From a virus: a DNA stretch of 33,402 bases. Positions 3,377 through 33,402 of the stretch are shown here, one piece after another. The stretch's first letter is position 1, and every line of letters starts with the position of its first letter. The notes beneath the pieces were generated by a model. It did no database searches. It was not told the origin of the DNA and worked only from the letters and a program-made list of their open reading frames with translations. The DNA is taken from positions 1 through 33,402 of IMG/VR virus record IMGVR_UViG_3300043419_000490; one strand, 5' to 3'. The position numbers were made by a program, and so were the translations under genes.

Positions 3377-3738
3377 GATGTACGCTCCACCAGCCCAACG
3401 TGCTGCACCAATAATTCTGTCTGTCCAAAGTCTGTCCCTACGACATCGTAATACTTCGAATCATCACCCACCCGGTACACGCGGTCTTGTGGCATCACGT
3501 CAGCCCCTACAGCGACTATCAAAGTCCACTGTGCAGATGATGCTATGCCACCGCCTACGATGCTCTCCGTGTCGTTCTGGTTGGTGAGCCTGGCGTTGTA
3601 CTCGGCAACCTTGCGCCACGTCTCAGTGGCACCGCCCCTGCCATCTTCGGTCAAGGTGAAGCGGTGTATCTCTACCCGGTCTTGGCAGAGGTTGCGTACC
3701 ATGCCTGCTTGAAGCGTTGCGCGTAGAATCGGGCTCAT
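3373..3738 (-). CDS. Head closure / head-tail adaptor protein (121 aa)
   Basis: The sequence has the head-tail adaptor pattern: an N-terminal strand (DRVEIHRFTLTEDGRGGATETW), then VAEYNARLTN and a beta-rich C-terminus with QDRVYRVGDDSKYYDVVGTD. This is the SPP1 gp16 / PF05521-like family that plugs the connector after packaging. Length fits the family. It follows the connector with an ATGA overlap, the standard order in HK97-type genomes. Assignment by motif shape and synteny is fairly strong. Confidence 0.7.
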   Translation of the reverse strand: MSPILRATLQAGMVRNLCQDRVEIHRFTLTEDGRGGATETWRKVAEYNARLTNQNDTESIVGGGIASSAQWTLIVAVGADVMPQDRVYRVGDDSKYYDVVGTDFGQTELLVQHVGLVERTS

Positions 3739-4232
3739 GCGAACACCAGAGGGCGGTATCGCTCTGCCATCGAAAGGCAGTGTGCTTTGAGTTGGGAAAG
3801 CTTCACATCGGAGGTGCCTTCCTTGGCATCGATGTCACTAGCGCAACGGCTAGCCTTTATCATCCACGCTTGCCGGGTTGCGGTGCGAACATCGTATCTT
3901 TCAACGTTGATCGGGCCTTGGTCTACCCACATCAGCGTAGGGTCTCCCGTGCCATCTTCAAGGGTAAAGCCCTTGACTTGGTACGGAGAATAGACCGGAT
4001 AATCGGGTTGTGTCGTGCCTGACGTACCGGCTACCCGGCACTCGTAGACCCTGCCGTTGGGCGTTGTAGGTACTACACGGTCACCTACAGCATAAGCCGT
4101 GCTGGCCGTCCAAGTGCTGAACCGTGAGAAAGAATCAAGGATGCTTCCTATGTCGGTGGTGGACATCTGCGGATAACTTTGGGCATCCACAAAAAGTGAT
4201 ACCTGCGCTATCGCTTCGGCTCGTGTCATCAT
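3735..4232 (-). CDS. Head-tail connector with an inserted CBM-like domain (165 aa)
   Basis: The N-terminus (residues 1-40, MTRAEAIAQVSLFVDAQSYP) and the helical C-terminus (about 110-165, including RQAWMIKASRCASDID and CLSMAERYRPLVF) resemble gp6/gp15-type connectors that ring the portal. Between them, residues ~38-105 form a separate module: WTASTAYAVGDRVV, then GRVYECRVAGTSGTTQPDYP, and DGTGDPTLMWVDQG. That is the pattern of the small carbohydrate-binding module family 5/12-like domains seen in chitinases and phage tail proteins. The gene follows a capsid terminator and has a possible leaderless promoter (4238-4248) 5 bases before its ATG. It ends overlapping head closure. Confidence 0.6.
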   Translation of the reverse strand: MMTRAEAIAQVSLFVDAQSYPQMSTTDIGSILDSFSRFSTWTASTAYAVGDRVVPTTPNGRVYECRVAGTSGTTQPDYPVYSPYQVKGFTLEDGTGDPTLMWVDQGPINVERYDVRTATRQAWMIKASRCASDIDAKEGTSDVKLSQLKAHCLSMAERYRPLVFA

Positions 4233-4237
4233 GCTCC

Positions 4238-4248
4238 ACTATCCCACA
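4238..4248 (-). promoter_or_regulatory. TGTGGGATAGT element, 5 bases before connector ATG
   Basis: On the minus strand TGTGGGATAGT precedes GGAGC and the ATG at 4232. The hexamer GATAGT would act as an extended -10 box (TGG before it), giving a start of transcription at or next to the ATG. It lies directly after the capsid terminator (4257-4284). No clear -35 box is seen. Confidence 0.5.
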
Positions 4249-4256
4249 TATAAAGA

Positions 4257-4284
4257 AAGCCCCCGGCACGTCTGCCGAGGGCTT
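4257..4284 (-). terminator. Rho-independent terminator after the major capsid gene
   Basis: The minus transcript forms a 12-bp imperfect stem (arms AAGCCCTCGGCA and TGCCGGGGGCTT) with loop GACG, followed by a T-rich stretch TTCTTTATAT. The capsid stop is at 4304-4306, 20 bases before it. Confidence 0.8.
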
Positions 4285-4303: not shown

Positions 4304-5584
4304 TTATGTAGCTGCGGATGCTCCGACGATAAGCGAACCCGGTACACGGTTGGCTGCTGTTGCATCCACGTTACCGATGTCAAACGCTTTGAATGCGAAT
4401 CGCTCAGTTGCCTTGAATGCAAGCGCATCTTCGACAAAGTAGCGCTGATCCGAAACCTCGATGGTAACGGTTCGGCGGTCACCGAATGCTGTACCCATGC
4501 TCAGGTCACCCAAGAGGACATAAGGCGTGGATGCTGCAAGGGTCTTCTGCATATTCTGGACGAACACGACAGGGTAACCGTAGAGCATAGGCGTAGGGCC
4601 GTACGCATTTGCGATGTCGCTGATGGCGTTTCCACCAAGTGCATCAAGCAAAGGTGCAATCGCGTTGTACCAAATCTCCTTATGCATATACCACTTGGCC
4701 TGTGCGGCGTATGTCGGGAGCTTGGCAACCATACCCTTCAGGTTAGCAAGTGTCGGGCTGTAGGTGATGGTCTGGCCGGTCGTGAAGACCTGCAAGGACG
4801 CGATGTTAGCCTTGGTTGCGTTGCTGCTGTAGATGGCATAAAGGATGCCATCGAGGCCGCTCGTGCTATCGACTGCATTGTTGAAAACAACGCGGTCTTC
4901 TTCCTTCGCAAGAACGTAAGCCATGTCACGGGCAAGCGTTGCACCAAAGTCGATGATGCTATCTTCGGCCAACTCTTTAGAAACCTGAGTAAGGACAGAT
5001 GGCTTCTTTGCAACCAAGTTGACCTGTGCAAAGGTCATATCGGAAGCGGTGATAGCGGTATTCTCACCCGGGTAGTAAACCGTGGTGCTCGCGGTTGCGT
5101 TTGGCACGTTCAAGACATCGCTGGACATCGGGTAGATGCGGCAGTTCTGCCGAGCAATACCGAACTGCTCACGGAGGTAGATAAGCTCAGAGGACAACGG
5201 ATCTGGAACGGTAAAACCACCAGCGGTTGTCGTACCTTCGGACTGTGCTTTGAGGTTGTTCTTGACCCACTCAGCGGCCTTGCGGTTGCCCATGATAGAG
5301 CGTCCCCACTGACCCCAAGCGTAAGCCTTCCAGTTTGCCTCATCACGAGTACCGGAGAATGGATTCTTACCAACGCCGCCGGATTTCCATGGCTGCTCAT
5401 CTGCAACTTCCGTTGCTACTGGATGACCTTGTCCAAGTGCCTTGATTGTCTCGATGCGCTCTTCGATGCCCTTGGCTTCTGCCATCAGGCTCTTGACCTG
5501 TGCAAGGTCACCGTTACCGGAAGCAAGCTCCCGTGCGGTAGCCAAGACAGATTCTTTTTGATTCTGTAGTTGTGTGAGATTCAT
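4304..5584 (-). CDS. Major capsid protein, HK97 fold (426 aa)
   Basis: The N-terminal ~80 residues are helical and charged (TQLQNQKESVLATARELASG, then EAKGIEERIETIKALG), like the delta/scaffolding domain removed by the prohead protease. The mature part has NCRIYPMSSDVLNVPNATAS and AKKPSVLTQVSKELAEDS, followed by AYVLAKEEDRVVFNNAVDS, the usual HK97-family spine-helix region. The C-terminus has the P-domain strand RRTVTIEVSDQRYFVEDALA. The start overlaps the protease stop as ATGA. A terminator-like hairpin (4257-4284) follows, fitting high, self-contained expression. Confidence 0.85.
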   Translation of the reverse strand: MNLTQLQNQKESVLATARELASGNGDLAQVKSLMAEAKGIEERIETIKALGQGHPVATEVADEQPWKSGGVGKNPFSGTRDEANWKAYAWGQWGRSIMGNRKAAEWVKNNLKAQSEGTTTAGGFTVPDPLSSELIYLREQFGIARQNCRIYPMSSDVLNVPNATASTTVYYPGENTAITASDMTFAQVNLVAKKPSVLTQVSKELAEDSIIDFGATLARDMAYVLAKEEDRVVFNNAVDSTSGLDGILYAIYSSNATKANIASLQVFTTGQTITYSPTLANLKGMVAKLPTYAAQAKWYMHKEIWYNAIAPLLDALGGNAISDIANAYGPTPMLYGYPVVFVQNMQKTLAASTPYVLLGDLSMGTAFGDRRTVTIEVSDQRYFVEDALAFKATERFAFKAFDIGNVDATAANRVPGSLIVGASAAT

Positions 5585-6564
5585 AGTTGTGTTAGCAACT
5601 CCAGACGTGCCAGCAGTTCCTGGCGTTCGTCATTGTCATGGGCTTTCGCCTCTACTACGATGACCGGGTTTGCTTCTGGCTGGTCTGCATCCCGCAGAGA
5701 ATCCCAACACTCAGGAGCAAGTCGCTTTGCAGCTGACCGGCTAAGACCGACTGCATCCCGCAGCCGACGTTCAACACCCCGCAAGGATGCGGGTTGTATA
5801 CATTTGGCACCGTGCATGGCGTATAGCTGCTTTGCACGATTCGCAAACTCATTGATGATTGCATCAGCCATTGAAGCATCAGCCACCAAGCCGATACCCT
5901 CGGACATCGCTTCGTAGTAGGCTTCCATGCCTTCATGGATTAGATCCGCTTCAGCCATCTTGAATAGCTCAGCGGCGTACTCTTCCGGGGATTGTTCAGG
6001 CATTGGAGCCATGACCATCTCTTCTTCTTCTTCCATCATAGGCTCCATGCCGTAGTACTCCTTGAGGGTTTTTACACTGTTGCGATACTCGGCAGGTGTC
6101 GGGGTAATGCTTGCCTCAGCGATAGGCCAGCGGGTAATCTCAGCGGCACCACCCATGCTCTTCCGCTCTACCAGATGACCAGCGGCACCGGATGAAAAGC
6201 CCATCTTGCCTTGCTTGCAGAGTTTCGCAATCATGCTGCCGTATTCATCCGCCATGTCTAGTTGAGCCTCATACCAAAGCCCGGTATCGTCCATCTTGAT
6301 GTAGCCTGTACCGATGCTCTTCTTGCCGACAGCGGCATCCATGCCGTGATGGTAGTACACATTCAAAGGGACTCGCTGCCCCTTGGCAACCGGGAAACCG
6401 TAGTCGGTTTGAGGCGTGAAGTAATCGCCCTCAAGGTCGGCGGTCTTATCGTTACCAAAGCGCACAAGGTAGCCCTTGACGTAGCCAAGCCTGTCGCTCT
6501 TGATACCGTCTACGGAAGATGTCAGCAAGTCCATACCCTCAGTATCCCACAGTGCATTTTTCAT
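5581..6564 (-). CDS. Prohead protease, with an acidic C-terminal region (327 aa)
   Basis: This is an HK97/U35-type serine protease that trims the capsid delta domain. It has GYLVRFGNDKTADLEGDYF, a histidine pair in VYYHHGMD (about 72-73), the serine block MGFSSGAAGH (about 121-130) and EASITPTPAE (about 150-159). After ~165 the chain is acidic and helical, with an EEEEE run, and could act as an internal scaffold. Two starts compete: ATG 6564 overlaps the MuF stop as ATGA, while ATG 6534 (MDLLTSSVDG) lies 6 bases after a TGTGGGATACT element. Both may be used. Confidence 0.8.
   Translation of the reverse strand: MKNALWDTEGMDLLTSSVDGIKSDRLGYVKGYLVRFGNDKTADLEGDYFTPQTDYGFPVAKGQRVPLNVYYHHGMDAAVGKKSIGTGYIKMDDTGLWYEAQLDMADEYGSMIAKLCKQGKMGFSSGAAGHLVERKSMGGAAEITRWPIAEASITPTPAEYRNSVKTLKEYYGMEPMMEEEEEMVMAPMPEQSPEEYAAELFKMAEADLIHEGMEAYYEAMSEGIGLVADASMADAIINEFANRAKQLYAMHGAKCIQPASLRGVERRLRDAVGLSRSAAKRLAPECWDSLRDADQPEANPVIVVEAKAHDNDERQELLARLELLTQL
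6540..6551 (-). promoter_or_regulatory. TGTGGGATACTG element, 6 bases before protease ATG 6534
   Basis: The hexamer GATACT (6541-6546) is followed by GAGGGT and then ATG, so a transcript would start at the A of ATG. The bases also encode Leu-Trp-Asp-Thr if the ATG at 6564 is used. It may boost protease and capsid expression. Confidence 0.4.
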
Positions 6565-7630: not shown

Positions 7631-9367
7631 CTACTCGCTTGAGATTTCCTCCAGCGAATACCCGTAAAAAGGGTGGCTCTTGTACACTACCCCCGGAGTG
7701 CAGACATGGTCACCATCAAGGCTCTTGCCGTCTGGTTGCATAGCGTCCCGCTTGGATGTAGACCAACGGAACCCAGCATCACCGCCCCACAAGTCCCAGG
7801 CTACACGCCCCGGACTTGGGAACCCCTCTTCACCAGCGTTGAAGCCTTCAGCCTGTTTGTCTACTTCATGGCGGCTGAAGAAAGAATACATCCGCAGTAT
7901 GGTGTCTTCGGAAAGTTTCTCACCGTTCACGATTTGGTTAGCCCGCGCCAAGCCTATGCGCGTCCCGCCATCGAACCCTTCAGCCTTCCAGTCAAGCGCC
8001 CGCTGTGCTGCTGTCCGCATCGCTTCAGTTGGGCGGAACTTGACATCGTAAGACCGAACGGCGGCACCATCAAAGCCACCGGTGCTTTGTACCGGGATAG
8101 CCGTTGGGTGTAGTTGCCCTTCATCTTCCGGCACGGCTTCAAGGCCTGCTATGCGCTTTGCTTCAGCCCGATCAATGATGCCAGCCTTGTACAGTTTCTC
8201 GGCTCTTACCGCTTCCGCTTGCATATCGTCAGCAAGCGCCCTGACCGTTTCAAGGTCATACATAACGTAATCACCCTGCTGTGTCTCAGGGTATTCCGGC
8301 AGGAGGTCAGCGGTGATTGCATCCGCCAAGGTACGCAGGAGTGGCACCATGCCATCTTCCCAAGCCGCTTGCTGGGCGCGTTCGTAATTGCTGTAGGTAG
8401 ACCGCTCTAAGCCTGAACCAAGCCCTAAGACCATCGGGTTGATACCAAGGGCTGAACAGATACGCTCCTCCGGTACACGCCGTACAGAGTCCAGAGCAAG
8501 CTCGGAAGGAGTAAGGGATACCCTATCCATCTTGTACGCACCGGTCATTACCACGATGCCACCGGAACCGTCCCCGGTTAGGTCTTCGTGTAGTTGGCGC
8601 TTGACCTGCCGAGCATCATCCATGCTCATGTCTACCGATGTCTCTTTGGCATCAGGCCCGACAATCAATGAAGGCATAGCACCGTTAGCCAAGAGTCCAT
8701 AAGCGGTTGTGGATGCGGTGTTATCGGTTGCAATCTCCCGCAGGACAGCGGTAAGTGGCGCTCTACCAATCCGGATATCGCTTGGGTCACGCCCGTACCG
8801 GATGTGGATGATGTCGGATACCGGGATGTCAAAACTCCTGCCGTCAGTGGTGTAGACGTAATGCGTCAAAGGGTTGACGCCGTTACCTACCGGTCTAACC
8901 ATGTCCTGCGGCAGGAACTGCAAGGCGGTCACCGTGCCACGGGTAGTAGAGCGTATCTTTCTCAGGTAGGTATTGCCGAATAACTTGTAATCTTGAATGA
9001 CCCAGCCCCAGAAAAGGCTACCCATAATCATTGGATCCGGTTGCGCCATGAGCTGTAGAACCGGGTGGTCTTCTACGGGTTCGGCCTGCTGGCTGTCTAC
9101 CGGTCGGTAATAGCGCGGCGTGGCCTGTGGGTAGTTTCTCACGTACCAATCAATAGCACTAGCCACAACACCGTTTAGGCCTAAGTCACCGGCTACACGC
9201 GACCAGTCCTTAGTGCTTCCAGGGAGTGCCCGGCGTAGCAATGTTTGCAGCTGACCAGAGCCGTAACCGGTTAGGTAGATGTCCCTAGACTGGGACAACG
9301 GCAGCGGTAGTGCCTGTGTCGGGTTGGCTGCGGCTTTACGTCCGAGGAAGCGGTCAAAGATACCCAT
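7631..9367 (-). CDS. Portal protein, HK97 family, with a C-terminal extension
   Basis: The N-terminus MGIFDRFLGRK and segments VVASAIDWYVRNYPQATP, GWVIQDYKLFGNTYLRKIR, IHIRYGRDPSD and CSALGINPMVLGLGSGLERS are typical of HK97-type portals, the dodecameric ring through which DNA is packaged. The ATG at 9367 is preferred over an upstream TTG at 9385, which falls inside a terminator. After the portal core, the last ~150 residues carry a separate module (RANQIVNGEKLSEDTILRMY, FFSRHEVDK and PGRVAWDLWGGDAGFRW) that is found appended to phage head proteins. The start lies 6 bases after a TGTGGGATACT element directly downstream of a terminator. Confidence 0.85.
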   Translation of the reverse strand: MGIFDRFLGRKAAANPTQALPLPLSQSRDIYLTGYGSGQLQTLLRRALPGSTKDWSRVAGDLGLNGVVASAIDWYVRNYPQATPRYYRPVDSQQAEPVEDHPVLQLMAQPDPMIMGSLFWGWVIQDYKLFGNTYLRKIRSTTRGTVTALQFLPQDMVRPVGNGVNPLTHYVYTTDGRSFDIPVSDIIHIRYGRDPSDIRIGRAPLTAVLREIATDNTASTTAYGLLANGAMPSLIVGPDAKETSVDMSMDDARQVKRQLHEDLTGDGSGGIVVMTGAYKMDRVSLTPSELALDSVRRVPEERICSALGINPMVLGLGSGLERSTYSNYERAQQAAWEDGMVPLLRTLADAITADLLPEYPETQQGDYVMYDLETVRALADDMQAEAVRAEKLYKAGIIDRAEAKRIAGLEAVPEDEGQLHPTAIPVQSTGGFDGAAVRSYDVKFRPTEAMRTAAQRALDWKAEGFDGGTRIGLARANQIVNGEKLSEDTILRMYSFFSRHEVDKQAEGFNAGEEGFPSPGRVAWDLWGGDAGFRWSTSKRDAMQPDGKSLDGDHVCTPGVVYKSHPFYGYSLEEISSE

Positions 9368-9372
9368 GCTAG

Positions 9373-9384
9373 CAGTATCCCACA
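9373..9384 (-). promoter_or_regulatory. TGTGGGATACTG element, 6 bases before portal ATG
   Basis: GATACT (9374-9379), then GCTAGC, then ATG at 9367: the same geometry as at 6540-6551. It begins at the last T of a terminator T-tract, so a new transcription unit seems to start exactly where the last ends. No -35 match; an extended -10 (TGG) is present. Confidence 0.5.
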
Positions 9385-9410
9385 AAAAGAAAAAGCCCCC
9401 TTGCGGGGGC
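9384..9410 (-). terminator. Terminator between the moron-like gene and the portal gene
   Basis: The minus transcript has GCCCCC, loop GCAA, GGGGGC, then TTTTTCTTTTT. It ends the 9430-9702 transcript just before the portal element. Confidence 0.88.
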
Positions 9411-9429
9411 CTGTGGCGGTTCCTATCGT

Positions 9430-9702
9430 CTAGTCTCTGGTGATGTACTGAGTATCTACATCAAGTCCGAGTGCGTGATACTTAGCGATGATTGCTTTCG
9501 ATTCTTCGTTGAGTCCACCAGCAACGTTGGACTGGAAGCCTACACTGCTTGTGTAGATGTAGCGGCGGTAGCTGTTGCGGCCATACTGAGCATAACCATC
9601 GAATACCGAGTTGATGTCTGCGGCATCGATGCCGGCTTTCTTAAGGTCTGTCTTGCGTGTGCTTGAAACCTTGATAACGTAAAAGTCGAAGTAGTTTTCC
9701 AT
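9430..9702 (-). CDS. Independently transcribed small protein (moron-like, 90 aa)
   Basis: I do not recognise this protein. It starts MENYFDFYVIKVSSTRKTD and is rich in Y, S, A and K, with no membrane segment. What stands out is its control. It sits between the large terminase and portal genes but has its own promoter (9732-9760), a strong GGGAGATA ribosome-binding sequence before the ATG, and its own terminator (9384-9410). That is the layout of a moron, an accessory gene expressed separately from the late operon. The promoter matches those of the rightward early genes, so it is probably expressed early or constitutively. An anti-defence or host-takeover role is possible but unproven. Confidence 0.7.
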   Translation of the reverse strand: MENYFDFYVIKVSSTRKTDLKKAGIDAADINSVFDGYAQYGRNSYRRYIYTSSVGFQSNVAGGLNEESKAIIAKYHALGLDVDTQYITRD

Positions 9703-9731: not shown

Positions 9732-9760
9732 AATATACACCGCCCGTGTATATATTGCAA
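9732..9760 (-). promoter_or_regulatory. Promoter of 9430-9702 with overlapping inverted repeat
   Basis: Read on the minus strand: TTGCAA (9755-9760), a 17-base spacer, and TATATT (9732-9737). An inverted repeat with arms ATATACAC and GTGTATAT (9733-9740, 9746-9753) covers the -10 and spacer, a likely operator. It matches the promoter at 20759-20787. Confidence 0.8.
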
Positions 9761-15223: not shown

Positions 15224-15311
15224 TTTGATATGTCGGTGATGGAAAGGTCTTTACCGGAACCACTGGGGCCGCCCTTGCGGGCATTTTCACATCCATCACC
15301 AACACACAAAC

Positions 15312-15339
15312 TATATACCCACACAGTGGATATTGTCAA
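15312..15339 (-). promoter_or_regulatory. Promoter for the SSB-like gene
   Basis: On the minus strand TTGACA (15334-15339), 16 bases, TATATA (15312-15317). The spacer begins with ATATCCAC, resembling the spacer of the 22338 promoter. The leader to ATG 15197 is about 105 bases and includes a GCCC-GCAA-GGGC hairpin. Confidence 0.65.
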
Positions 15340-17807: not shown

Positions 17808-18167
17808 TTATACATCAAAAGCAAACCCGACATGATCCGCTATCGCCTTGGCGGCATCGTGCCAAGAGTACGCAACAATGAAAGTGTAGCCGTGCGGCTG
17901 GAGAGCATCCCTAAAAGATACCTGCCTCGGTGTTAGCCTTCCCTTGCCTGCCTTCATCTCGATGAAAAGACCGGGAGTGGGAACCGGTAGGAAGATGTCC
18001 CAAACACCGGCAAGGACACCCATGGCTTTGAACTTTGCAGCTGTACGCGGGTCACGGTAGCCACCGTTGGGGCAATGGTATATCGTAGCAAGCTCAGGGT
18101 GTTTAGCCGCCATCAAGCGTACCCAAGTAATCAGGGCTATCTGCTCCCGGTCTTCAAGATGCTTCAC
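17808..18167 (-). CDS. VRR-NUC domain nuclease (119 aa)
   Basis: The whole protein is a minimal VRR-NUC fold: EDREQIALITWVRLMA, HCPNGGYRDPRTAAKFKAMG, then AGVWDIFLPVP (catalytic D), GLFIEMKAGKGRLTPRQVSF (ExK plus the Q helix). This family contains Holliday-junction or flap nucleases, and stand-alone phage copies sit in replication blocks. Start is GTG at 18167, overlapping the sigma-factor stop as GTGA. It probably processes branched DNA before packaging or during recombination with the ERF protein. Confidence 0.88.
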   Translation of the reverse strand: MKHLEDREQIALITWVRLMAAKHPELATIYHCPNGGYRDPRTAAKFKAMGVLAGVWDIFLPVPTPGLFIEMKAGKGRLTPRQVSFRDALQPHGYTFIVAYSWHDAAKAIADHVGFAFDV

Positions 18168-19015
18168 GTCAAATCCTCAACTTCGTAGCGCCCCCGGATG
18201 GTTGCTAGGGCTGATTCTATCTGCGCCTCGATGACTGACACGGGTGTCTTGTACCGGCTGGCTATCGTCCGCAGGGTCTCCGGCTTACTGCCATCCAAAC
18301 CAAAGCGCCTTACAAGCAAATAGCGGGAATCGTCATCCAGCGATAGCAAAGCATCGCCAAGCCTATCTGCCCATGTATCAGCGATAAACGCCTCCTCGGG
18401 GCTTGTGGAGGCTCCTAGTACCCTGCAATCCTCATACACCAGACCATCCGTGCCAGCGACCGGGACATTGATACTCACCGGCTGTACTTGCTGGCTGTCC
18501 CTGGCGATGCCTATCATCGTAACCGATAGCCCCGTATAGGTTGAGAGCTCCTCATCGGTTGGAGCCGTGCCGTGCTGATGGAGGTGTTGATCGTGTGCCT
18601 TACGGATTCGCAACCACTTGTATATGGTGTGCTCGGATACCCGTATGGTCTTGCTTTGGGTTGACTGGTAACGCCTGTACTTCTGAATAATCCACTTCAT
18701 GGCGAAAGTGCTGAACCGTAGCCCCCGGCTGGAGTCCCACCGGGTAATGGCGATGATAAGACCCTGAAGGCAGAACGCCACGGCGTCCTCAAAGTCATCT
18801 TGCTTGTGTATCTGCTTGGCCATCTCTTTACATAGGCCGGTGTTACGGTGAACCATTTCAGCCATGCACTCTTTGGGCATGATGCCCGCCGCCCATGCCT
18901 GATGCAGTAAGACCATCTCATCGTGAGACAACAAACGCTCCGGCGCCTTGGATAAAGCCCGGAGCGTCTGCCGTATGCTTGCCTTACTTGGTGGCAAGTG
19001 CAATCCAATCAACAT
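18164..19015 (-). CDS. Sigma-70-family transcription factor (283 aa)
   Basis: The sequence shows the core of a housekeeping-type sigma factor. Region 2 runs from NTGLCKEMAKQIHKQ (about 58-72) through AVAFCLQGLIIAITRWDSSR to GLRFSTFAMKWIIQKYRRYQ (about 98-117). A region 3-like helix pair follows (TAPTDEELSTYTGLSV, about 150-165), and region 4 is LRTIASRYKTPVSVIEAQIE at about 248-267 after RYLLVRRFGLDG. Region 1.1 is absent. Phage sigma factors of this size redirect host RNA polymerase to middle or late promoters. It overlaps the Tad2-like gene by 32 bases and VRR-NUC by 4. A candidate target is TGTGGGATA(C/G)T. Confidence 0.8.
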   Translation of the reverse strand: MLIGLHLPPSKASIRQTLRALSKAPERLLSHDEMVLLHQAWAAGIMPKECMAEMVHRNTGLCKEMAKQIHKQDDFEDAVAFCLQGLIIAITRWDSSRGLRFSTFAMKWIIQKYRRYQSTQSKTIRVSEHTIYKWLRIRKAHDQHLHQHGTAPTDEELSTYTGLSVTMIGIARDSQQVQPVSINVPVAGTDGLVYEDCRVLGASTSPEEAFIADTWADRLGDALLSLDDDSRYLLVRRFGLDGSKPETLRTIASRYKTPVSVIEAQIESALATIRGRYEVEDLT

Positions 19016-19202
19016 TAGATGTCATGCCGTTATAGATGCCATGCCTCCAATCAGTAGCGAATAGATCTACAGTAAAGATGACAAAGTTTGAATCAGATAG
19101 ATCATGAATGTCCTCGATAAAAATATAGTCTGTGCTACTCCATGCAATCCTGGAGATAGCAAAACCATTTTTTAGATGTTCAATTGCAGCCTCAAATGTC
19201 AT
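18984..19202 (-). CDS. Tad2-like (DUF2829-type) protein (72 aa)
   Basis: The ATG at 19202 is chosen because CAGGAG lies 8 bases upstream and translation begins MTFEAAIEHLKNGFAISRIA, the classic front of DUF2829. The end motif TVDLFATDWRHGIYNG and a following DWIALA complete the domain, with a short YIFIEDIHDLSDSN between. Tad2, the best-known member, sequesters the Thoeris signal molecule. It sits between a methyltransferase and a sigma factor, and is moderately AT-rich. Closest in the window to the domain at 12615-12854 by its LFATDW motif. The anti-Thoeris role is inferred. Confidence 0.7.
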   Translation of the reverse strand: MTFEAAIEHLKNGFAISRIAWSSTDYIFIEDIHDLSDSNFVIFTVDLFATDWRHGIYNGMTSNVDWIALATK

Positions 19203-19204
19203 CA

Positions 19205-20167
19205 CTATACTCCTGCAATCCTCTTGCCGATCCATCTCATTACAGGAACGGCCATACTATTACCGATTGCGATATACCGTGAGCTGTCTGGCGTGTTTGA
19301 CATAATGTCTGTATATCCATCTGGGAAACCTTGAAGGCGTTCACACTCGGTAGGTGTAAGTTTACGCACTAAGACATGATGGCGTACCAATGGAGTATGA
19401 CCACCACCTGTTCCGAATCTGGCTATTACCGTTTGACTTGTCTTTGGTTCTTCTTTCAGCCGTGCATCAGTTTGGTTGTGTTGATACATCACAGGTACTA
19501 GGTTGTAACATTCGTCTCCTGATGGACCTCCGGTTCCTTTAGCCCACTTTGAAGATACAGAGCCCGTGATAGATGCATCGGCAATGCCTTGCCCCTTCGT
19601 TCGGCTCGCTTTATGATTCCCTGACAAGCTCTCTGGCTCAAATAGTATTTCTCCGGCACGTCTGCTGTCCCCTGAAGAATGTGCGATAACAAAGACTCTT
19701 CTACGTCTTTGGGGCACTCCAAAGTACTGAGCGTCAAGCACTCGGTAGGCGAACCCATACCCGAGTTGCCCCAACGCCCCGATGAAGGAACCAAAATCCC
19801 GTCCTCCTGAGCTGGACAAAACACCGGGGACGTTTTCCCAGATAACCCATTCTGGGCGGTAGTGGTCAACCATTGCAACGAAAGTGAGGGCAAGGTTTCC
19901 CCTTGGATCGTCAAGCCCTTTGCGGAGTCCGGCAACGCTGAAGGACTGGCAGGGAGTCCCTCCGACAAGAACGTCAACTGCATCTCTTTCAATATCCCAC
20001 TCCCTAAATCTGGTCATGTCACCAAGGTTAGCCACTCCAGGATAGTGATGGGCTAACACCTTGGACGGAAACTTTTCAATCTCTGCAAAGGCAACGGGAG
20101 TCCAACCAAGGGACTCCCATGCAACGCTTGCAGCTTCAATGCCGCTACACACACTCAGGTATCTCAC
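19205..20167 (-). CDS. C5-cytosine DNA methyltransferase (about 320 aa)
   Basis: All main motifs of the C5-cytosine class are present in order: I, VRYLSVCSGIEAASVAW; IV, VLVGGTPCQSFS with the catalytic Cys; VI, WVIWENVPG; VIII, FGVPQRRRRVFVIAHS; and, after a target-recognition region, KLTPTECERLQGFPDGYTD and IGNSMAVPVMRWIG (X). A GTG at 20167 is preferred, overlapping the zinc-ribbon gene stop as GTGA. No cognate restriction gene is seen, so it most likely protects phage DNA. It is the second methyltransferase in the window and of a different chemical class from that at 10934-12073. Confidence 0.9.
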   Translation of the reverse strand: MRYLSVCSGIEAASVAWESLGWTPVAFAEIEKFPSKVLAHHYPGVANLGDMTRFREWDIERDAVDVLVGGTPCQSFSVAGLRKGLDDPRGNLALTFVAMVDHYRPEWVIWENVPGVLSSSGGRDFGSFIGALGQLGYGFAYRVLDAQYFGVPQRRRRVFVIAHSSGDSRRAGEILFEPESLSGNHKASRTKGQGIADASITGSVSSKWAKGTGGPSGDECYNLVPVMYQHNQTDARLKEEPKTSQTVIARFGTGGGHTPLVRHHVLVRKLTPTECERLQGFPDGYTDIMSNTPDSSRYIAIGNSMAVPVMRWIGKRIAGV

Positions 20168-20758: not shown

Positions 20759-20787
20759 TTGCAATATATATATTGCCGGTGTATATT
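20759..20787 (+). promoter_or_regulatory. Rightward early promoter
   Basis: TTGCAA (20759-20764), 17-base spacer, TATATT (20782-20787), with the core GGTGTATATT shared with the promoters at 9732 and 22338. Start of transcription near 20794. Confidence 0.85.
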
Positions 20788-21802: not shown

Positions 21803-22341
21803 TGGGATATCACTTAGTAGATGGCGAGCTGTGGGACGAGGAGACCGGCGAGTATGCCGGTCCGATGTCAGGCTGGATAACAGGCAACGAATCACCGGAA
21901 GACCTTGCGCTCCTGGTGATGCGGAAGCGCATGGACATCGAGGCAACCCTACAGGCTGAGAAAGCCAAGATGGATGCGATCGTAGAGAACACCCGCAAGA
22001 TGGTTGCAAAGCATCAGGCCCGGCTTGACTGGCTGGAAGCGCGATACAACGCCCAGCTGCAAGACTACGCACTAAGCCAACTGCCACGCAAAGCCGACGG
22101 CTCCTTGAAGGTCAAGACGTGGACGTGTCCTTATGGCACGGTTTCCTTCCGGACAGTTGCCGAGCGTGTCAAGGTAGTAGAGGAAGAAGAAACCGTAGCA
22201 TGGCTGATGGAGCATAACCCTGAAGCGGTCAAGACAAAGCACACTGTGCTGGTTAGCAAGCTCAGCGACTTTGCCACGATCCACGCGCCAGGGCTTGAGA
22301 TAATCCCGGCTACCGAATCGGTAACGATAAAAACAGTTTGA
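21802..22341 (+). CDS. Gam-like host-nuclease inhibitor / DNA-end-binding protein (179 aa)
   Basis: The helical N-terminal half contains LEARYNAQLQDYALSQ (long antiparallel helices), followed by a beta segment TWTCPYGTVSFRTVAERVKV and WLMEHNPEAVKTKHTVLVSK, which fit the Mu Gam fold that resembles Ku. Gam-like proteins bind DNA ends and block RecBCD-type degradation. The strong GGGAGGAAATAGATA precedes the ATG. Directly after ERF, it likely shields ends while ERF anneals them. It is the last gene before a second early promoter at 22338-22366. Confidence 0.8.
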   Translation: MGYHLVDGELWDEETGEYAGPMSGWITGNESPEDLALLVMRKRMDIEATLQAEKAKMDAIVENTRKMVAKHQARLDWLEARYNAQLQDYALSQLPRKADGSLKVKTWTCPYGTVSFRTVAERVKVVEEEETVAWLMEHNPEAVKTKHTVLVSKLSDFATIHAPGLEIIPATESVTIKTV

Positions 22342-22366
22342 CAACTATCCACATCCGGTGTATATT
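22338..22366 (+). promoter_or_regulatory. Promoter of the orphan gene 22401-22733
   Basis: TTGACA (22338-22343), 17-base spacer, TATATT (22361-22366): a near-consensus sigma-70 promoter overlapping the end of the Gam-like gene. Inverted repeat GGTGTATA (22357-22364) and TATACACC (22378-22385) flanks the start site, fitting an operator. Confidence 0.85.
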
Positions 22367-30224: not shown

Positions 30225-30768
30225 AGTATGCCCCGCATGGCTTTAGCCATATTAACCTCTTGCTTTTCGAGGTCTTGACCAATCACCGCAACCTCGCATA
30301 TCTGATCAATCGTCAAATCCACCTCTGATGGGTGGCGGTGCAGGAACTTGATGCAGTAATACGCAACAATCGCTCCCGCACCGGTTAGTCGTTTTTTGCT
30401 TCTTCAACCTTAGCAACGACATCGGTAATCAGAAACTTATCTACAAACTGCTCGTAGATATGAAAGAACGCAAACCGGTTAGAACGGCTAAGGTCAGCAA
30501 GCGCACGGATAGGAGCAACATCGCCGGGGTCATCCATATCTGCCACGTAACACTTAGCAATGATGGACAGGTTGACCAGTAGCCCCTGTGTCATTTCAGG
30601 GTAGGAAATCTGCAACGCTTTGAGCGCTGTACCATCCGGGAAGATGTCTGCCGCCTTGGGTTGACGGAAGCGGACAACCGCTCCCTCACCAGCCCACTCG
30701 CTCAAGTCAACATCTAGAATCCCGTGATTGGCTTCTGGCTCAACCGCCTTGATGGCCTTGATACCCAT
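30221..30768 (-). CDS. Tail assembly chaperone, -1 frameshift product (gpGT-like, about 182 aa)
   Basis: After slipping at A AAA AAC (30391-30397) ribosomes would continue in the -1 frame with RLTGAGAIVAYYCIKFLHRH and IDQICEVAVIGQDLEKQEVN, ending at a TGA that overlaps the tape measure ATG (ATGA). The extension has no other start or ribosome-binding sequence, so it is only reachable by frameshifting. This matches lambda gpG/gpGT, where the minor longer product binds tape measure and major tail protein. The extra domain is 56 residues. Efficiency cannot be read from the sequence. Confidence 0.8.
30385..30768 (-). CDS. Tail assembly chaperone, 0-frame product (gpG-like, 127 aa)
   Basis: Lying between the major tail and tape measure genes, this is the standard location of gpG-type chaperones that hold the tape measure in a form ready for tail assembly. 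The ATG at 30768 (TAATG with the major tail stop) is preferred over a TTG at 30783. It is helical with KAADIFPDGTALKALQISYP and SRSNRFAFFHIYEQFVDKFL, ending VEEAKND. Two codons before its stop lies the heptamer A AAA AAC, which allows a -1 shift into a 56-residue extension (see the separate entry). Confidence 0.82.
   Translation of the reverse strand: MGIKAIKAVEPEANHGILDVDLSEWAGEGAVVRFRQPKAADIFPDGTALKALQISYPEMTQGLLVNLSIIAKCYVADMDDPGDVAPIRALADLSRSNRFAFFHIYEQFVDKFLITDVVAKVEEAKND
30391..30397 (-). promoter_or_regulatory. -1 ribosomal frameshift heptamer A AAA AAC
   Basis: On the minus strand the 0-frame reads GCA AAA AAC GAC TAA, so the heptamer A AAA AAC is in the exact X XXY YYZ register. The stop codon follows after one sense codon. 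The -1 frame then stays open to the tape measure start. Position within a gpG-like gene is the classic context. No obvious downstream pseudoknot was worked out. Confidence 0.85.
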
Positions 30769-31220
30769 TATGCGGATGTCCAAGCGGTAGCAACACCGTT
30801 AGCACCAAGCATGATTGTCGCTGTCTCGGATACCGCTTCACCAGCTGCAATGCTGATACCGGTAGCGGTTACAACACCTACAAAAGTCTTTGCGGAAAGA
30901 GCGCCTGGAGTAACTACGATCTGGCAGTAATAGCCTTCTTTATTGAAGAAGACCGGGGAACCGTCAGCCTGTTGTGTACCGTCTACCAGCAACTCAATCT
31001 CAACCGAGCCGCTTGCTTTGGTAACCTGCATCTTCTTCGTAGTGTCGCAAAGTGCCGACACATCAGCGGTATCTACACTTGTAGATGTACGCACCGACTT
31101 GGCCAAACAGGTGTACGTGTTAGCGGTAAATGCTGAAGGCGCACCATCTTGAAAACCACCAAAGGCAATAGTTACGGTACAGTTTTCACCGACCAAACCG
31201 AACGATTTTGTAAAAGGCAT
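30768..31220 (-). CDS. Major tail protein (150 aa)
   Basis: Beta-rich tail-tube subunit: VGENCTVTIAFGGFQDGAPS, then SVRTSTSVDTADVSALCDTT, KASGSVEIELLVDGTQQADG and a C-terminal GISIAAGEAVSETATIMLGA. Position between tail terminator and chaperone is the normal siphovirus order. AGGAG lies 8 bases before the ATG. At 150 residues it is a short tube protein without an extra Ig domain. It is among the better-translated genes judging from its ribosome-binding signal. Confidence 0.78.
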   Translation of the reverse strand: MPFTKSFGLVGENCTVTIAFGGFQDGAPSAFTANTYTCLAKSVRTSTSVDTADVSALCDTTKKMQVTKASGSVEIELLVDGTQQADGSPVFFNKEGYYCQIVVTPGALSAKTFVGVVTATGISIAAGEAVSETATIMLGANGVATAWTSA

Positions 31221-31231
31221 TGTGTCTACTC

Positions 31232-31711
31232 CTACTGCTGGGTCAAGCAGCGATAGACCGCTGTCACCCCGTAATCCGTCCTGCCACCATCAGATAGTAC
31301 AAAGGTTTGATCCGTTGAAGTCCTGCGGACATAGAGCCGTGGGGTCGTGGTTGTCACCGTCTGATTATCCAAAAGTGTATCGATGCGATTCATTATGGTT
31401 TGTATTCTCGCCATACTCATCGCTCCGCTTTCAGTATCCCACACAGTTATCCGGTAGTTAGGGTAAGTAAAAACACGAGCGCCGCACATGGTGTCTTCGT
31501 CTTCACCGCTGGCACCAGCTCTGCTAAACACAACGTAGGGCACCTGCACCGGTCGGCGTGATACCGGATCAGTCTGTGGCGCTACGGTGTTATAGATGCC
31601 CATCTGATAGCCATCAGGCTTATTGTCAACGGCAAGTAAACCCAAGAGCGTAGTATCGCCGCTCAGGGTCTCATATATCCATTGCTCAATCACTGCCGGT
31701 TCAAATGCCAT
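31232..31711 (-). CDS. Tail terminator protein (159 aa)
   Basis: The chain IEQWIYETLSGDTTLLGLLA, VPYVVFSRAGASGEDEDTMC, YRITVWDTESGAMSMARIQT and IDTLLDNQTVTT fits the tail-terminator/DUF3168-like family, which caps the tube at the neck end. Position between the gp10-like neck protein and the major tail protein agrees. The start overlaps the gp10-like stop as TAATG. It contains, in coding frame, a chance copy of the TGTGGGATACTG element that encodes Trp-Asp-Thr. Confidence 0.75.
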   Translation of the reverse strand: MAFEPAVIEQWIYETLSGDTTLLGLLAVDNKPDGYQMGIYNTVAPQTDPVSRRPVQVPYVVFSRAGASGEDEDTMCGARVFTYPNYRITVWDTESGAMSMARIQTIMNRIDTLLDNQTVTTTTPRLYVRRTSTDQTFVLSDGGRTDYGVTAVYRCLTQQ

Positions 31712-32169
31712 TACTTACCTTTCAAAACCAGACTGAGTGCTTTGATAAATGCTGGCTTGACCTTCATTAGAGCCGGTTCCATGAATGGCCTTGCAGGTAC
31801 TGTATTACCGCCCTTCGATGTCCATCCAAGTTCTAGGGCAACCGCGTACTTGGCATCTGCTGTAGCATTAGCACCCTTTTTACCAGCGGTGATTTCAGCT
31901 TTAGTCTTGCCTATCATCCTATGACCGATGCTATTTGCGAGATTACCTGTGTCGGTGTTTGGTGGAGTGCCGGGTGGACTTGAGTACGTTTTTATATCTT
32001 TATTCAAGCCACTGACACGCTCTTTGTATTTACCAGACGATGTCAATATAGAGTCTTTAGCGTTGCCTTCTACTTGTGCCGCCATCGTGCCAACTACCAC
32101 AGTAATCTTGCCTAGATTCGCCTTGTAGCGGTCTAGGGACGTAGTCTTGAGGGATACTGTTACACTCAT
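31711..32169 (-). CDS. gp10-like neck/tail-completion protein, complete copy (152 aa)
   Basis: The protein has a helical front (LDRYKANLGKITVVVGTMAA), SSGKYKERV, then YSSPPGTPPNTDTGNLANSI, the gp10-family signature, and KYAVALELGWTSKGG with RPFMEPALMKVKPAFIKAL at the end, which is a common family C-terminus. It would sit at the neck between head closure and tail terminator. It is only distantly similar to the partial gene at 1-276, though both follow a spike-associated protein, so the two cassettes differ in age or origin. Confidence 0.75.
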   Translation of the reverse strand: MSVTVSLKTTSLDRYKANLGKITVVVGTMAAQVEGNAKDSILTSSGKYKERVSGLNKDIKTYSSPPGTPPNTDTGNLANSIGHRMIGKTKAEITAGKKGANATADAKYAVALELGWTSKGGNTVPARPFMEPALMKVKPAFIKALSLVLKGK

Positions 32170-32519
32170 GGTGCCAGCACCTGAATCTGTAAAGGCCCAA
32201 AGCGCCGTACCGTGGTGCTAACCGTGAAGGATATCGTTAGCCTGATGTCTGCCGCTGTACCGTAAGCCGCAGGGTTGAGAACGCTCAGAATGCCTTGTGC
32301 GCTGTACTGCTTTGTCAAGGTAACGGATCCAGATGGAAAGGTATAAGCCGCCCCCGTAGCAATGTTGGTGAAGGTAGCACCAAGTGTACCGGTCGTGATG
32401 TCTACCGGGCTTCCCAGTTCGTCCACCAAGCGGACAACGTAGGAGTGCCAGTCTCCGACCCATGCGGAGACTTGCACGACCTGCTGAGGGTCTTCAGTCA
32501 AATCATAAATCAATGCCAT
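32166..32519 (-). CDS. Small spike-associated protein, second copy (117 aa)
   Basis: A paralogue of the protein at 273-629, sharing TEDPQQVV/TEDPEQVV near the start, TTGTLGATFTN in the middle and VSTTVRRFGPL at the end, with many differences between. It has the same BppU-N-like pattern, VRLVDELGSPVDITTGTLGA. It overlaps both its spike (TAATG) and gp10-like neighbour (ATGA). Presumed to help join or fold the spike. Confidence 0.62.
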   Translation of the reverse strand: MALIYDLTEDPQQVVQVSAWVGDWHSYVVRLVDELGSPVDITTGTLGATFTNIATGAAYTFPSGSVTLTKQYSAQGILSVLNPAAYGTAADIRLTISFTVSTTVRRFGPLQIQVLAP

Positions 32520-33402
32520 TAGATATCCCTCACATAGATACGCAGTGGTCCAAATATCTGCGTATCGCTTGCACCCGTTGTGCGTGTAATCGTTGCAGTG
32601 TAAGTGCCTGGAGTGTTGGTAACCGTTGTGTCAATGGTGAAGGTAGCACGTCCATCAGCTGCGTAGGTTGCCGTACAGGAGTAAGTGTCAACCAGCGTTG
32701 CACCGCTGTTGTAGACCTTAGCCGTAACCGTTGCACTCGTGATGTCGATTCCTGCGCCGTTGTTGTCTACACACTGGATATCGATGCCGTGCTGTGCGCC
32801 CTTCTGAATATCAAGCGGATCCGATGCCCCTAAGCCATCCGCCCTAACTTCAAACGGCCCCATGCGTACCAGAGCGGCAGAGGTAACCGGGGTCACAAGT
32901 TCGGCATTGACATACTGCCCGAAAGTACCGGCTGTCGTATGGCTTGTCCTTGCCTCATCCCACACCGCCGCCGCCGTCTGTGCTTCCGTCAAGCCACCAC
33001 TGCTCAGTTTGACCGTCATTACCGCACCGTTAGTACCGCTTGCACCACGCACCACGATAGTCACATCATCAGCACCAGCAGCCAGTGCGGCATCCGGGAG
33101 GTCTAAGCGATACACGCCCGGCATGTTGGTTGCGTCAACCTCGGCAAAGCCACCAGATGTCCACGCTTGTGCGATGGTACGGGCTACTAGAGAAATGCTT
33201 ACAGATGCAGTGCGTGTGCGGTTGTATCGGGCTGTGAGACCGCTTGTGGAGGCTGTTAGACCTGTAGCACCGAGATACAGTTCGATGCTTTGTGATGTGC
33301 TACCGGGTGCGATTGTGATGGTGTTCGGTGCAGGTTGATTGATGAAGCCAATCACATTGTTCCGCGCCGCATACGTGTATGCTCCCATACCTAACAGGGA
33401 TT
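32519..33402 (-). CDS. Tail spike C-terminal part, 5' end beyond window edge
   Basis: Open to the right edge: residues SLLG continue upstream of MGAYTYAARNNVIGFINQ, so the Met at 33388 is internal. Its sequence closely follows the C-terminal half of the spike at 626-2677 through the GGFAEVDATNMPGVYRLDLP region, with nucleotide identity falling from complete in the last 124 bases to moderate in the final BppU-like domain (ending FGPLRIYVRDI). The N-terminal receptor-binding part is outside the window. Likely a second spike or an allele of the first. Confidence 0.7.
   Translation of the reverse strand, partial: SLLGMGAYTYAARNNVIGFINQPAPNTITIAPGSTSQSIELYLGATGLTASTSGLTARYNRTRTASVSISLVARTIAQAWTSGGFAEVDATNMPGVYRLDLPDAALAAGADDVTIVVRGASGTNGAVMTVKLSSGGLTEAQTAAAVWDEARTSHTTAGTFGQYVNAELVTPVTSAALVRMGPFEVRADGLGASDPLDIQKGAQHGIDIQCVDNNGAGIDITSATVTAKVYNSGATLVDTYSCTATYAADGRATFTIDTTVTNTPGTYTATITRTTGASDTQIFGPLRIYVRDI
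33279..33402. repeat. 124-bp exact direct repeat, copy 2, ends at the window edge
   Basis: Identical to 1542-1665, in the truncated second spike. Ending a contig exactly at the end of a long exact repeat is typical of a break in assembly or of wrap-around on a circular molecule. Confidence 0.9.

Follow-up and report, generated by a model that had tools for sequence, protein, structure and literature searches.

The late sigma factor gp55 of bacteriophage T4 acts at late promoters without a -35 element; the T4 late promoter reads TATAAATA and works with a clamp-loaded coactivator. For most sigma factors of metagenomic phages, to our knowledge, no promoters are known. Among the described phage factors, phiEco32 gp36 steers the host core polymerase to middle and late promoters made of one conserved element without a -35, with transcription starting 6-8 bp downstream (PMC8948821), while gp47 of phage 7-11 is a late sigma factor proven in vitro, with few promoters located before late genes (PMC8948821). 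Concerning bacteria, the -10 hexamer of leaderless genes in Actinobacteria, Deinococcus-Thermus and Acidobacteria begins some 12 bp upstream of the start codon (PMC3160421).

The DNA presented here (the window) is a stretch of 33,402 nucleotides, positions 1 to 33,402 of the IMG/VR virus record IMGVR_UViG_3300043419_000490, and a gene on its minus strand probably specifies a late sigma factor of the phage, a sigma-70-family protein that would read a regulon of four promoters. As expected of such a factor, the late motif is the phage's own, occurs in few copies and is distinct from the host-type promoters. The lack of a -35 is shared with the late promoters of T4 gp55; the pattern TATAAATA-N(4-30)-ATG was absent from the one lineage C and the one lineage D record searched (lineages are defined below). 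Functionally, the late sigma factor of the window would fall with phiEco32 gp36 (single element) and not with 7-11 gp47 (bipartite). Both it and gp36 are phage sigma factors with single-element promoters lacking a -35, the dependence on sigma being a prediction here, but the phiEco32 element is tAATGTAtA (PMC8948821) and ours is TGTGGGATACT. Compared by description, gp36 is devoid of region 4 homology, whereas the window protein appears to have a region 4 fold with altered recognition residues. Phage 7-11 also has few promoters preceding late genes, but they are bipartite, GTAAtg-(16)-aCTA with an upstream element, which the elements of the window lack (PMC8948821). RpoD, SigA, SigB and RpoS share with the window protein an apparent region 2-4 architecture, the residues F427, T429, W434, Q437 and R441 and the predicted fold; it differs from them in having no room for region 1.1, in an identity of just 24-30%, in a score far under the RpoD cut-off and in changes at region 2.2, position 440, positions 453-459 and region 4.2. 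Finally, bacterial leaderless genes have the same distance from -10 hexamer to start codon as the phage elements, but in the phages an invariant TGTG precedes the hexamer GATA(C/G)T, whose likely reader is the phage sigma factor.

The minus-strand ORF encodes a sigma-70-family protein. It matches Pfam Sigma70_r2 (PF04542) with 29.4 bits (cut-off 24), the NCBIfam sigma70 superfamily model TIGR02937 with 50.9 bits (cut-off 42.9), phrog_351 'RNA polymerase sigma factor' (E-value = 1e-32) and the PDB entries of SigB and SigA (E-values = 1e-19 to 1e-17). Regions 2, 3 and 4 had been described as recognisable from the sequence; this holds for region 2 at the Pfam level, while region 3 (18.4 bits, cut-off 25.3) and region 4 (13.2 bits, cut-off 24.1) fall below the cut-offs, yet are spanned by the NCBIfam, PDB and predicted-structure alignments. 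The structure predicted from an input alignment of 22 rows (mean pLDDT 73) matches sigmaS and sigma70 (Z about 14); the overall rmsd is large because domains move, and region 2 alone gives 1.6-2.2 A over 88-96 residues. The protein, said earlier to resemble a primary sigma, is not itself one: NCBIfam RpoD-type models match with an E-value of about 1e-26 but far under their equivalog cut-offs (90.8 bits for TIGR02393 against a cut-off of 354), and the best cellular match shows about 28-30% identity. In contrast, the claim of a sigma factor in a genome of this size is borne out, the genomes of this family being ~32 kb; the annotated complete phages among the best sigma matches have genomes of 100 kb or more.

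The preliminary description placed the gene at 18164-19015, the longer reading of the frame from ATG 19015. The frame is indeed open on the minus strand, but ATG 19015 is absent at the matching spot in relatives 87-97% identical. Homologous frames of the relatives open at TTG (GTG in L101 and L109) and in several of them an in-frame stop immediately precedes this start; therefore the gene is most likely located at 18164-18997 (minus strand), with TTG 18997 as the probable start and a product of 277 aa. The gene upstream (18984-19235) varies among relatives, and its final codons (IALATK, stop) overlap the sigma start. From this variation, the 5' end of the sigma gene appears to be a mosaic or recombination boundary.

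Relatives were gathered by portal-, sigma- and element-guided scans of IMG/VR, leading to >200 loci, the majority of them related. Their sigma factors form four lineages, with identities to that of the window of 87-97% (A, the lineage of the window), 42-46% (B), 39-41% (C) and 22% (D). In the phylogeny against host and phage sigma factors, lineages A-C formed one group relative to the sampled cellular and other phage sigmas (support 100/99), and lineages A-D were also grouped (support 99/96), a grouping to be taken with care, as D sits on a long branch (2.83). No cellular sister of the phage clade was resolved in the sampled tree, and the stem of the clade is long. The family reads as a phage-only clade of four lineages. 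Capture from a host, which had been suggested on the basis of similarity to primary sigma, finds no backing in this long stem, in the sampling without a cellular sister or in the low identity of the best cellular match; there is no sign of a recent host capture, and an ancient cellular origin is possible. A pattern-based scan of genome contigs for sigma relatives found none. Relatives of the terminase (TerL) in cellular genomes reach only 38-51% identity and come from Acidobacteriota (Terriglobia, Pyrinomonadaceae) and Fimbriimonadaceae MAGs; the four loci with those TerL relatives contained neither a sigma match nor the element. The 201 genomes searched from the phylum of Fimbriimonadaceae gave only weaker sigma matches (best E-value = 1e-35), and these were rejected as relatives, the eight best resembling ordinary cellular sigmas in the tree. 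Lineage C keeps the sigma gene, while homologues of Hjc, primase, helicase and SSB were not detected in it, a pattern in favor of the late-sigma reading. On its late strand the lysin gene is immediately followed by the sigma gene (L298:2772-4100), unlike in A and B, and sigma may also be transcribed late there. Two sigma genes, one of lineage A and one of lineage B, are found in a double-length contig (L023, L146; IMGVR_UViG_3300042429_000522, 62434 bases), which represents chimeric or joined genomes, and a frameshift breaks a lineage B sigma gene in one contig (L157:195-1045), by error or real decay.

The window harbors four exact copies of the element, all on the minus strand; allowing up to one mismatch gives 5 matches against 1.04 expected. 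Element 1 (TGTGGGATACT, 9374-9384) lies 6 nt before the ATG of the portal gene, the first of the late operon (7631-9367, minus strand; phrog_2662, E-value = 2e-51), and is invariant in 79 of 79 distinct portal contexts. Element 2 (TGTGGGATACT, 6541-6551) is established 6 nt before the ATG of the head maturation protease gene (5581-6534, minus strand; phrog_80, a weak match with E-value = 0.0018) and recurs in all 68 recognisable protease contexts; the probable start ATG 6534 is conserved with it, and the major capsid protein gene follows downstream (4304-5584, minus strand; phrog_10, E-value = 1e-42). The starts of the portal and protease genes were corrected to 9367 and 6534 from the element positions and the relatives. 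Element 3 (TGTGGGATAGT, 4238-4248) precedes by 5 nt (6 nt in most relatives) the ATG of a head-completion or connector-like gene (3735-4232, minus strand), so named for its conservation and its place after the capsid gene; 48 of 49 head-completion contexts carry the element, the lone exception having it behind an alternative start. Element 4 (TGTGGGATACT, 31433-31443) is located inside a tail-completion-like gene (31232-31711, minus strand), 212 nt upstream of a major-tail-protein-like gene with its own GGAG Shine-Dalgarno (30768-31220, minus strand), both functions being assigned from position.

Near-complete records of lineages A-C, 10 in number, each contain TGTGGGATA(C/G)T exactly four times, with every copy on the late strand; the reversed pattern used as control gave 0 in the same records, and records of 22-27 kb have three copies. 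Among relatives the element is invariant but for the -8 base, whereas its 6-nt spacer and the sequence upstream of it are variable. It persists even in lineage C, with 62% GC, structural proteins 50-78% identical and other terminators; one portal copy of that lineage has A at -8 (TGTGGGATAAT), a base otherwise rare outside lineage D. Among the records selected by portal, all those extending to the sigma locus hold both the sigma gene and the elements. We read TGTGGGATA(C/G)T as a putative extended -10 (TGTG from -17, G at -13, GATA(C/G)T from -12), and no conserved -35 was found upstream of it in the aligned contexts of the relatives. That the sigma factor would be the reader of these elements, as the preliminary description proposed, is favored by their co-occurrence, by the four copies in all 10 A-C records and by the joint shift of sites in lineage D described next.

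Element 4 was considered a chance match, having no start codon at the usual distance, a view overturned by its recurrence and codon conservation in relatives. In the records read, the gene that contains it precedes the major-tail-like gene, and its codons GTG TGG GAT ACT (V-W-D-T) are unchanged in 17 distinct genes, while neighbouring synonymous sites vary. Codon invariance is seen in only 7 of the 86 degenerate codons with an invariant amino acid, the V, D and T codons of the element being three of the 7 (hypergeometric p = 3.4e-4, a guide rather than a strict test, as the genes are related). In these alignments, the conservation of element 4 extends to its synonymous sites. Lineage D (L307, L355 and L356, with a contig of 32 kb) has the most divergent sigma factor; there, all four sites read TGGGATAAT, positions -17/-16 are unconserved in three of the four, and at the in-gene site WDT has become WDN along with the element. 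A trans-acting reader evolving with its sites would best explain this joint shift; as the phages of lineages A-D are related, sigma and elements could also be co-inherited by descent without one reading the other.

It is possible that the elements are extended -10 promoters of the host primary sigma, and that the phage protein acts otherwise, for instance by competing with host sigma or at host promoters. Indeed, TGTGGGATACT conforms to TRTGnTATAAT, the pattern of host promoters that work without a -35; the host primary sigma could use a GATACT hexamer preceded by TGTG; and the phage protein has a degenerate core-binding motif (see below). Nevertheless, the invariant G at -12 and the rarity of A at -8 outside lineage D form a consistent departure from the host consensus, and the four elements shift together exactly where the sigma factor diverges most. 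Moreover, these phages keep a promoter of the host type, TTGACA-18-TATA(T/G)T, upstream of the SSB-like gene (15310-15339, minus strand, TATAGT in the window), conserved in the listed relatives with a changed base in a few. Further host-type promoters were located at 20759-20787 (plus strand, TTGCAA-17-TATATT, rightward early genes), 22338-22366 (plus strand, TTGACA-17-TATATT) and 9732-9760 (minus strand, TTGCAA-17-TATATT, before a small ORF at 9430-9702). Their overall counts show no excess over shuffled sequence, so the argument is conservation, which was assessed at the SSB promoter alone. The genes that follow host-type promoters have GGAG-type leaders, and the leftward early and middle genes, with sigma among them and the terminase gene as the last, precede the late operon that begins at the portal gene. 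We consider use of the elements by host sigma unlikely and favor the phage sigma factor as their reader.

The distance between element and ATG is almost always 6 nt at the portal, protease and head-completion genes (in the window 6, 6 and 5 nt), which fits the -10 to +1 distance and lets the hexamer begin about 12 bp upstream of the start codon. If +1 is placed seven nt downstream of the end of the hexamer, the mRNA would open with the A of the ATG; the three mRNAs would accordingly be leaderless, with +1 at that A or at most one base away. The same fixed spacing of 5-6 nt in three of the four copies could suggest that the 11-mer is a translation-initiation signal or another RNA-level element of leader-bearing late mRNAs. 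This is very improbable, since the fourth copy is in-gene with conserved synonymous sites and has no start codon at that distance, which makes a translation signal unlikely, and since intrinsic terminators lie directly upstream of element 1 (9393-9412, minus strand) and element 3 (4257-4284, minus strand), so that transcription would need to restart there.

Concerning the protein, E. coli RpoD numbers equal the residue in the 277-aa protein plus 332, a conversion valid over regions 2.2-3.0. A housekeeping-like region 2.3-2.4 had been described, which is correct for F427, T429, Y/F430, A431, W434, Q437 and R441, all kept, but not for W433K, R436I, T440R, P453S, V454E and E458Y. The promoter-melting residues (F427, T429, Y/F430, A431, W434) are thus present in the window lineage except for W433, replaced by K. 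Residue E458, related to the extended -10, is lost, and the -35 recognition residues R584, E585, R588 and Q589 of region 4.2 are replaced by V, S, E and A. Across lineages A-D, 26 of 252 columns are invariant, including R423, F427, T429, A431, R440, R441, Y442, I450, R451 and E454. Residues T440 and Q437 of sigma70 face the -12 base pair, and substitutions there alter -12 specificity in E. coli (PMC2613000). Position 440 is Arg in all four phage lineages (T440 in E. coli) and their -12 base is invariably G; we propose that this residue, Arg108 of the window protein, which lies on the side of the helix facing the -12 base pair, may read this G, the match being a correlation. Three Synechococcus phage sigmas likewise carry R440 and Y442, and TGGGATANT-N(5-7)-ATG was not found in the genomes of those three phages, so G at -12 does not follow from R440 alone.

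Region 2.2 is the main core-binding motif of the sigma-70 family. Its DLIQEGN became DAVAFCL in the window, DACQYCV in lineage B and DAVAAAL in lineage C, while lineage D retains E407. Loss of core-binding residues, named in the preliminary description as evidence against a functional sigma factor, is therefore partly observed: L404A, Q406A, E407F, G408C and N409L changed, while D403, G411 and L412 are unchanged. The core-binding reading leans on established knowledge. Docking on the core with such a degenerate motif appears as the main weakness of the late-sigma case. The loss of Q406, E407 and N409 would also suit a degenerate, core-independent DNA-binding protein of the sigma family repressing late genes via the four elements, but the invariance of D403, G411, F427, T429 and A431 in A-D and of W434 in A-C is hard to explain for a mere binder of duplex DNA, and we regard this reading as very improbable.

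If the phage sigma factor is the reader, host sigma would transcribe the early genes from -35/-10 promoters, and the phage sigma, expressed from the early leftward operon, would bind the host core RNA polymerase and direct the holoenzyme to TGTGGGATA(C/G)T. There the extended -10 (-17 TGTG, -12 G) would suffice without a -35, with Arg108 presumably contacting the -12 G. The four late promoters would serve portal, protease and capsid, head completion and tail; the transcripts of the portal, protease and head-completion genes would be translated without a leader, starting at the A of the ATG, while the major tail protein would be translated from a leadered mRNA made at promoter 4, inside the tail gene. 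A more ambitious version is plausible and is put forward tentatively: a phage-only sigma clade that re-tuned -12 recognition (Arg 440 and G at -12), dropped -35 recognition and altered its core-docking surface, that controls exactly four late promoters (three leaderless, one in-gene) and that co-diverged with them across at least four lineages. Many phages of about 32 kb that are known without cultivation would thereby display a sigma factor together with its complete predicted regulon. The sigma lineages with their matching promoter shift offer a natural series, and a whole late-gene switch would become legible from sequence and open to testing, the prediction being that the phage turns on its virion genes via leaderless mRNAs. 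The region 2.4 residues that determine the -12 base, and the way in which a sigma factor docks on core polymerase when its region 2.2 motif is degenerate, are likewise testable questions.

Some minor features of these genomes are also reported. A match to TGGGATATT at 19981-19999 lies inside a DNA methyltransferase gene, and an Rfam search of the window gave no RNA family. Between the terminase and portal genes, the segment 9393-9760 carries the small ORF 9430-9702, with its own host-type promoter and then a terminator; the ORF is absent in relatives whose terminase end abuts element 1, like a moron-type cassette. The tail-like genes at the record ends (626-2677 and 32519-33402) share 86% identity over 300 nt, and a protein-level likeness also links the small genes 273-629 and 32166-32519, these pairs being either paralogues or an assembly of variants. 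Finally, the large terminase gene of some relatives carries nine inserted nucleotides, GGC TGA GTA, including an in-frame TGA, within its Walker A motif, CG-TGA-VGRRFGKT (L101:8799-9977, L097:7617-8795, L063:4088-5266, L306:5653-6831; also L135, L138, L150, L170, L230 and L098); the gene is otherwise intact, and recoding or some other trick is conceivable.
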